Source: Segetibacter koreensis DSM 18137
GTDB taxonomy: Bacteria; Bacteroidota; Bacteroidia; Chitinophagales; Chitinophagaceae
Length of the DNA: 64,000 bases
Direction: 5' to 3'
Assembly: GCF_000374045.1 (NCBI RefSeq)
Contig: NZ_KB893319.1
Span: forward strand, 62,170 to 126,169
Below are positions 22,132 through 23,577 of the stretch, piece by piece. Positions within the stretch are counted from its first letter, which is position 1, and every line of letters starts with the position of its first letter. The translations under genes and the position numbers were made by a program. The notes below the pieces were generated by a model. It was not told where the DNA came from. It searched no databases and saw only the letters and a list, made by a program, of their open reading frames with translations.

Positions 22132-23577
22132 ATGGCTTTCGGTTGGAAAACACAGTTTGAAAAAAGAGTACCCTCAGATGGTTTAAGCAATTGGGAAATA
22201 TTCAGCATTGCGCAACAGGCGTGCAAAGAACTGGATTGGGAATATTTGATTGTTGACGAAAGAACCTTCACTGCTACCACCCCCACTCACTGGACTTTAA
22301 GCGAGCAAATAATAAAAATAATAGTCGACAGCGATGAGATAATTTTTGAAAGCCAAAGTGAAAGCCTGGAACTGTACGAAGCGGGGCGAAATAAAAAAAA
22401 TATTGAAGATCTATTGCTCCCTGCTTTTAAAAAAGCAAGAAGGCGAGTGTCTTATCAAGAGCTGCAAGTTGCAGCAAACGCACTAAAGGCAGAAACGCTT
22501 GCTCAAATAAGATCAGGTAACCGTGTTGCAAGCGAAAAGATGACCTTTGGCGTTAGAGAGCACGAAATGACCTTTATGCTAATTGCAGTAAAGCTGGTGA
22601 TTTTTGCTGTAATGGTTTTAAAGGGCGTTGATTATGTAAACCCTGCAGTAAAAGATATAATCGGTTGGGGTGGAAGTGTAAAGTTGAATGTAACTGGCGG
22701 AGAATGGTGGCGTTTGATAACCGCACCTTTCGTGCATATTGGCATTCTTCCGTTGCTTTTAAATATGTTTGGCCTTTACTGGATAGGGCTGATGGTGGAG
22801 CCGATCCTTGGCAATTTCAAGTTTTTAATTGCCTACTTGTGTACTGCAGTTATTGCCGGTCTTGTAAGTCTGCTATGGTTGCCGGAAGGCGTAACAGCTG
22901 GTGCGTCTGGAGCTGTTTTCGGTATGTACGGGGTGCTAATTGCATTTGCAACAACAAGGTATATAAATAAAAAGTTTCCTACTGTTTGGCTTATCTGCAT
23001 ACTTGCGTATGCTGTTTTAAATATTTTTCTCGGTATGGAAGGAGCCAATGATAATGCTACTAACATTGGAGGATTGGTGGCAGGTATTTTTGTCGGCTAC
23101 TTATTTTATTTCTTTCATTTTAAGAGAAATCTTGCCCGAGCCGGTGGATCAAGAATTAGCATAGAAATTCTGTTGATCACCGCAATGCTCGTGTTTTTTT
23201 ACCTTAAGCAAAACGGAAAAGATGATACATTGAGATTTGAAAAAGAAATAATGCAGTTAAACCAGATTGAGTTGAAAGCAATGACACAAATGCAGCAGCT
23301 TCAATCAAAAACAAACGAGGAGGCTGCAAAGGTTTTACGAGACAGCGCTTTGCCACAATGGAAACATTTTCAGAAGGAGATCATGAAAACGGATGCCTTC
23401 AGGCTCGATGATGAATTTAAGCAGAAGAGAAAATTACTTAGCAGATACGCTCAATTGAGGGTGCGTCAAACAGAGTTAATATATAAATCAATAAATGAAG
23501 AAACTGATAAATATAACGCTGAAATTGATGAGGTTTCAAACAAAATAGATACAATAATAAACAAGTTAGGAACCTAG
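22132..23577 (+). CDS. Rhomboid-family membrane protein, probably inactive
   Basis: A 481-residue protein with a soluble N-terminal domain (about 1-140), a rhomboid membrane domain (about 145-350), and a charged helical C-terminus (about 375-481) likely to be coiled coil. The nucleophile motif GASGAVFG is intact with Ser259. The second catalytic position, usually His in a DNAAHIGG-type motif, reads DNATNIGG, so Asn311 replaces His. The 52-residue spacing between the two positions fits active rhomboids, so the alignment is secure. Without His the Ser-His dyad cannot form, and the protein is probably a pseudoprotease. Its stop codon overlaps the kdsB stop by 4 bp; the two genes converge. Confidence 0.85.
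   Translation: MAFGWKTQFEKRVPSDGLSNWEIFSIAQQACKELDWEYLIVDERTFTATTPTHWTLSEQIIKIIVDSDEIIFESQSESLELYEAGRNKKNIEDLLLPAFKKARRRVSYQELQVAANALKAETLAQIRSGNRVASEKMTFGVREHEMTFMLIAVKLVIFAVMVLKGVDYVNPAVKDIIGWGGSVKLNVTGGEWWRLITAPFVHIGILPLLLNMFGLYWIGLMVEPILGNFKFLIAYLCTAVIAGLVSLLWLPEGVTAGASGAVFGMYGVLIAFATTRYINKKFPTVWLICILAYAVLNIFLGMEGANDNATNIGGLVAGIFVGYLFYFFHFKRNLARAGGSRISIEILLITAMLVFFYLKQNGKDDTLRFEKEIMQLNQIELKAMTQMQQLQSKTNEEAAKVLRDSALPQWKHFQKEIMKTDAFRLDDEFKQKRKLLSRYAQLRVRQTELIYKSINEETDKYNAEIDEVSNKIDTIINKLGT

Follow-up and report, generated by a model that had tools for sequence, protein, structure and literature searches.

The window, by which we mean the whole 64,000-nucleotide stretch of Segetibacter koreensis DSM 18137 analysed here, holds a gene for a putative pseudo-rhomboid of 481 amino acids, flanked by a KdnB-like gene and kdsB, both of which run on the opposite strand. 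The genes of the locus and the features of the protein are as follows.

20865..21941, minus strand: KdnB-like flanking gene (3-deoxy-alpha-D-manno-octulosonate 8-oxidase), from its match to 5k8c; synteny anchor
22132..23577, plus strand: pseudo-rhomboid gene, 481 aa, ATG to stop, from the ORF and the Pfam Rhomboid match; intact orthologues in five other species of the host genus
22132..22536, plus strand: N-terminal domain, residues 1–135, ahead of TM1; conserved W36 and S74, no Pfam match
22552..23124, plus strand: six-helix rhomboid core, residues 141–331, from structural matches to GlpG; model confident only from residue 191
22735..22737, plus strand: His202, first histidine of the TM2 motif, kept (Tyr in G007), from the alignment
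22750..22752, plus strand: Pro207 in place of the second TM2 histidine, from the homologue alignment; a GlpG histidine aligns here
22906..22908, plus strand: Ser259, position of the catalytic serine, kept (Thr in three of six genus copies), from the alignment
23062..23064, plus strand: Asn311 in place of the catalytic histidine, from the homologue alignment
23149..23205, plus strand: seventh hydrophobic helix (TM7), about residues 340–358, from hydropathy and alignment; counterpart in the tail-only proteins
23209..23574, plus strand: C-terminal helical tail, residues 360–481, presumably on the periplasmic side; present without the core in G004 and G001
23574..24350, minus strand: kdsB flanking gene, from synteny; shares 4 bases with the end of the rhomboid gene, on the opposite strand

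The Pfam family Rhomboid (PF01694) matched residues 190–325 with 99 bits, against a cut-off of 22.6, and the product of the KdnB-like gene matched 5k8c with 449 bits over residues 3–357. As neighbours of the rhomboid gene, the KdnB-like oxidase and KdsB suggest the 8-amino-Kdo branch of lipopolysaccharide synthesis.

The N-terminal domain and the C-terminal tail proposed in the first-pass annotation are both real parts of the protein. The N-terminal domain is common to the whole layout of N-terminal domain, core, TM7 and tail, and its residues W36 and S74 are conserved in 95–96% of 56 canonical homologues. No Pfam family scored above its cut-off on the N-terminal domain, on the helical tail or on the tail-only proteins described below, and the family libraries supplied no identity for either part. 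Based on GlpG topology, we presume that the N-terminal domain lies on the cytoplasmic side and that the seventh helix puts the tail outside the inner membrane, in which case the tail would be periplasmic. A 646-aa protein of an order-level relative (L022:136-2073:- of G045) has a rhomboid core in which Ser and His are present, followed by a region alignable with the tail, by a MORN variant and by a TonB C-terminal domain; a TonB domain behind a rhomboid would fit a periplasmic C-terminus.

The structure was predicted with AlphaFold on an alignment of 14 rows. The pLDDT of blocks ranged from 70 to 93 over residues 191–330, from 69 to 90 over residues 371–480, and from 32 to 59 over residues 1–190, and hence the N-terminal domain and TM1 of the model are not interpretable. 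The structure prediction proposed as a check gave a GlpG-like fold for the modelled core, with GlpG as the best match (Z up to 17.1, rmsd 3.0–3.1 over 172 residues, within residues 147–329). The second-best matches were iRhom1 and iRhom2 with Z of 12.8–15.0, and the Derlins (7y4w_W, 7czb_A, 6vk0_C) gave Z of 9.7–10.5. With its PF01694 match and a predicted six-helix, GlpG-like core, the protein belongs to the rhomboid superfamily. The tail is predicted to be helical, and its PDB matches were helical bundles (2ap3 with Z 10.1, and receptor fusions) in a range of Z that is uninformative for helices.

Residues of the catalytic site

The protein reads AGASGAVFG around Ser259 and NDNATNIGG around Asn311. 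In a phmmer alignment with the GlpG of H. influenzae (2nr9), one histidine of GlpG stands under Asn311 and a second under Pro207, and two residues of the site are therefore gone. The first-pass annotation had described a kept Ser259 and a catalytic histidine replaced by Asn311, which was confirmed in the ORF, in the GlpG alignment and against the homologues; the loss at Pro207 lies outside the span that it covered and is additional. We take the second TM2 histidine to be His150 of GlpG, in number and in role.

Homologues were collected in a first search of 59 genomes, 16 of which had a match, and in a family-wide search of 394 genomes, where 109 had a match, at 116 places. From these places 71 proteins were aligned, four more of other layouts were read, and 41 were left out. 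The aligned set consists of six copies from the host genus (L007 to L012) and 65 canonical proteins from outside it, 56 with the full layout and nine shorter; L049 and L050, which duplicate L015 and L016, were removed. The four homologues of other layouts (L018, L019, L020 and L023) are all canonical. L019 and L023 adjoin each other on contig C2 of G035, with frames of 551–552 aa and the catalytic residues kept in both. Among the named genome contigs scanned, the sole match was a distant rhomboid in Lacihabitans sp. (L026). At E up to 1e-15 each genome with one of the six genus copies has a single match, which together with synteny rules out that a paralogue was mistaken for an orthologue. The host genome also carries other rhomboids with Ser and His motifs (TM2 of the paralogue L003 lay outside this check).

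All 65 proteins from outside the host genus have the full set of His207, Ser259 and His311, and all six genus copies, called the altered copies from here on, lack both histidines. From L007 to L012, position 311 reads N, N, L, L, M and N, and position 207 reads P, P, P, P, P and N. Position 259 reads S, S, T, T, T and S, and the copies with Thr at 259 are the same three that have Leu or Met at 311; Asn211 is kept in all six. Judged by the residues of active rhomboids, the protein thus has the serine of the GxSG motif (Ser259; Thr in three of the six genus members), and it lacks both the catalytic histidine of TM6 (Asn311) and the second histidine of TM2 (Pro207), each of which is His in none of the six. 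The alignment with homologues of the same layout, a check named in the first-pass annotation, hence limits the loss to the host genus, and the five close homologues there are without His as well, so that the case named as fatal to the claim, close homologues that all have His, did not arise. The asparagine itself is not conserved in the group, being present in three of six copies with Leu or Met in the others; what the group shares is the absence of His. The presence of Asn, Leu and Met at position 311 suggests that the site has varied freely since the loss. Sequencing error or chance is ruled out by the loss in six species.

The histidines of the protein are at positions 53, 144, 202, 329 and 412. 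A different histidine in the catalytic place, the other finding that had been named as fatal, was considered and rejected, as only His202 (Tyr in one species) and His329 lie in or near the membrane core. His329 is 18 residues beyond position 311 in the same predicted helix (residues 305–337), and judging from the model it is probably too far away to stand in for the catalytic histidine.

A second, wider rhomboid family with a DUF6576 tail also looks inactive (L004 on contig C18 of the host genome, outside the window; L153–L182). In the host genome the DUF6576-tail rhomboid adjoins a canonical one (L004:1027-1878:-). Its Ser motif is GAGP or GSGP in nine of nine genus copies read, and in other genera it is GAS in 12 of 21 copies read. 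Going by these motifs, the family appears to be a further line of pseudoproteases, one that includes intermediate forms.

The locus across the host genus

The host genus was sampled with ten species, and others may exist. In six of them the order at the locus is KdnB-like gene, altered rhomboid, kdsB. In G004 and G001 the same locus encodes a protein with one hydrophobic helix (TM7) and the tail only, 167 aa long in G004 and 165 aa in G001. The identity of these tails to those of the altered copies is 39–43% for G004 and 26–31% for G001, at which level (26–43%) their function may have drifted; both proteins keep all five invariant tail columns. In G002 and G003 the site is empty, and 80 and about 290 bases, respectively, separate the kdsB match from the KdnB-like match. 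Neither genome had a match to the pseudo-rhomboid at E up to 1e-10 (the G002 genome is 71% complete), and G003 had no match to the tail profile either. With the gene missing in two of ten species and cut down in two more, it is dispensable in the host genus. A canonical copy occupies the locus in none of the ten species. In G011, of genus g3, a canonical rhomboid gene is the neighbour of kdsB and dnaN, as in the host, and the KdnB-like gene is found about 1.7 kb away.

Matches to the tail profile occurred in 46 of 294 family genomes, 45 of them in frames of 474–537 aa, the length of rhomboid fusions. Among the matches listed, the exception is that of G004 (171 aa), and G001 is absent from them. 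Since the tail is nearly always found in frames of rhomboid length, the tail-only form most likely arose when the gene lost its front part.

In the core tree the six altered copies form one clade (84.3/85) and hence do not stand for six separate losses. Rooted on L017, their root-to-tip paths are 2.53–2.63, whereas those of the canonical proteins have a median of 1.82 and reach 2.37 at most. Species trees were built from four and then from five proteins; infB and rpoC of G002, and rpoC of G001 and G008, were absent from the data. In the five-protein tree without G002, G001 falls outside the rest (97.7/93), G003 and G004 come together (86.6/83), and the six species with altered copies group together with 74.6/73. 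When G002 is included, the matching branches drop to 71.8/40 and 58.8/39, and neither G002 nor G007 has a firm place in the four- or five-protein trees. As a canonical copy is found in none of the ten species, the simplest history would have a single loss of catalysis at the root of the genus, after which the front of the gene was deleted twice and the whole gene lost twice; the branch order is weak, so that catalytic loss before the deletions is not proven.

A shift of constraint from the core to the flanks

The reading frame is intact in all six altered copies, and in close pairs these are under purifying selection. For the closest pair, L009–L010, dN and dS are 0.03 and 0.98 over the whole gene, 0.04 and 1.40 over the core, 0.02 and 1.31 over the tail, and 0.02 and 0.42 over the N-terminal domain. 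For most altered pairs dS is saturated or undefined, and the close pairs alone are informative; their dN/dS rules out a freely decaying pseudogene.

Constraint has shifted from the core to the flanks. Among the 56 canonical proteins with full N-terminal domain and tail (the nine shorter ones were left out of these counts), conservation is highest in the core, out of the three parts, in 1539 of 1540 pairs. In the fairer comparison, limited to pairs with a mean identity of 50% or more, the same holds for 45 of 46; it holds for none of the 15 altered pairs. The pairs in these counts are not independent. The exception among the close canonical pairs is L053–L055, where N-terminal domain, core and tail have identities of 81, 89 and 93. 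Mean identities of the N-terminal domain, core and tail are 22%, 57% and 23% in canonical pairs, and 70%, 67% and 70% in altered pairs. Between altered and canonical proteins the mean identity of the core is 41%, compared to the 57% of canonical cores among themselves, whereas for the N-terminal domain (19 against 22%) and the tail (22 against 23%) there is little gap. Hence, it is the core in particular that has lost constraint. The six altered copies agree at many positions where their residue is rare in canonical proteins, among them Trp5-Lys6-Thr7 and several at 328–339, after TM6.

Interpretation and comparison with known systems

The best reading of the locus is a bacterial lineage of rhomboid pseudoproteases, kept as a membrane anchor for the tail and the N-terminal domain. 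By the enzymology of GlpG we infer that the altered copies would lack catalytic activity. It is probable, in our judgement, that the protein is a dead rhomboid whose two histidines were lost in an ancestor and which has been kept for its non-proteolytic parts, with the core as anchor or spacer. A rhomboid with N-terminal domain, core, TM7 and tail would have lost the catalytic and the second TM2 histidine in the ancestor of the genus, or of the six carriers. The protein would have been retained for the work of its non-proteolytic parts, chiefly the tail past TM7 together with the N-terminal domain; the core would now hold those two in the membrane, and the tail may bind a partner in the envelope. 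At the level of sequence, the first-pass suggestion of a pseudoprotease is borne out by the loss of both histidines in six of six copies, their intact frames, the low dN/dS of close pairs and their single clade (84.3/85). A rhomboid fold, the loss of the residues across that clade and a gene kept under selection together mark the protein, descriptively, as a rhomboid pseudoprotease, its inactivity being argued from the residues.

As for the binding of membrane proteins that the first-pass annotation suggested, the evidence at hand points away from the core as the part that does the work: it is where constraint dropped, and it is missing in two sister species that keep the tail. The tail on its own in two sister species suggests that the tail, and not cutting, did the lasting job. 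Extended to the whole layout, the protein would be a protease in conversion, whose lasting function is non-proteolytic and lies in the tail past TM7, while proteolysis would be an optional regulator that was given up here; this extension we offer tentatively, at somewhat short of an even chance.

A protease with altered chemistry, using Asn or no general base and Thr as a nucleophile, might be read from the kept Ser259 of this protein and from the Asn211 of all six copies. It is very hard to reconcile with Leu or Met at 311 and Thr at 259 in the same three species, with a model in which no other histidine appears to be within reach, and with the inactivity of GlpG mutants of the catalytic histidine. 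The two empty sites and two tail-only proteins among ten species may also be seen, together with the catalytic losses, as stages of one slow decay of a gene that has lost its purpose in the host genus, and the altered core does evolve faster than canonical cores. We regard such decay as unlikely, given the six intact frames and a low dN relative to dS in every domain of the closest pair. Moreover, within the altered clade the conservation of the N-terminal domain and tail equals or exceeds that of the core, many residues are invariant in the six copies and rare in canonical proteins, and the five invariant tail columns persist in the tail-only frames.

A decoy or adaptor role, in which the dead core binds transmembrane substrates and shields them or hands them to an active rhomboid paralogue or to FtsH, would draw on the core fold that the model retains and on the other rhomboids with Ser and His motifs in the host genome. 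It also has a precedent in YqgP, which parts of PMC7231995 describe as an FtsH adaptor that works without catalysis and needs its N-terminal domain. That the part in question is the one with relaxed constraint, and is absent from two sister species, makes this role quite improbable here; the YqgP role also needs an unoccupied active site, according to the same parts of PMC7231995, and here the residues of the site vary (N/L/M and S/T), which is not itself blocking. We therefore retain a pseudoprotease kept as an anchor for its flanks as the preferred reading, and compare it with known systems.

The canonical rhomboids of other genera of the family share the N-terminal domain, core, TM7 and tail, with 27–32% identity to the pseudo-rhomboid, but they keep His207, Ser259 and His311 (65 of 65 read), whereas it is without both histidines. 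GlpG of E. coli and H. influenzae has a similar core fold, with His at both lost positions and, to our knowledge, no TM7 or helical tail. The Derlins, which are pseudoproteases of ERAD, are likewise similar in core fold, but they are eukaryotic, and we know of no such tail in them. For DER1 (PF04511) the pseudo-rhomboid was not listed at E up to 5 and weak matches appeared in two of 24 relatives, under filters that drop weak matches.

The animal pseudoproteases iRhom1 and iRhom2 resemble the pseudo-rhomboid in having extra domains and, as far as its residues indicate, a rhomboid fold without activity; the best PDB hits of the family profile are to iRhom2 (3.9e-14 and 5e-14). In the iRhoms aligned here, GPAG stands for the Ser motif (GPxG) and the histidine is kept (DNxAH), whereas in the present lineage the histidine is lost and the serine mostly kept, with GASG intact in this protein. 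An insert of the iRhom type, such as the iRhom homology domain that we take to sit between TM1 and TM2, is absent: by hydrophobicity TM1 spans residues 148–166 and TM2 195–213, and the model helices at 141–168 and 205–226 (the TM1 part with low confidence) likewise leave no room for a large one. The iRhom homology domain is named in part of a review (PMC12615303).

YqgP of B. subtilis is likewise bacterial, carries an N-terminal domain and can act as an adaptor without proteolysis, and its dead mutant still serves FtsH, as set out in portions of PMC7231995. YqgP is catalytically active, unlike what we expect of the pseudo-rhomboid, and the likeness in the N-terminal domain is one of layout. 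B. subtilis YdcA is given in the same portions as lacking activity despite the hallmarks of an active rhomboid, and the origin of rhomboid pseudoproteases from active rhomboids as not clarified (PMC7231995). Eukaryotic pseudoproteases and the dual role of YqgP are the cases treated in these portions and in those of the review (PMC7231995, PMC12615303). No dead bacterial rhomboid lineage was found in the literature searched, which comprised titles and the openings of abstracts, with thin coverage of subscription journals. Rhomboid pseudoproteases as such are known, and have so far been studied in eukaryotes (iRhoms and Derlins); what is distinct here is that the lineage is bacterial, that the histidine is lost with the serine mostly kept, and that it has a tail-only derivative. 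With a dead form, a protease-less form and an empty site at one locus, and canonical forms in neighbouring genera, a non-catalytic role becomes directly testable in bacteria.
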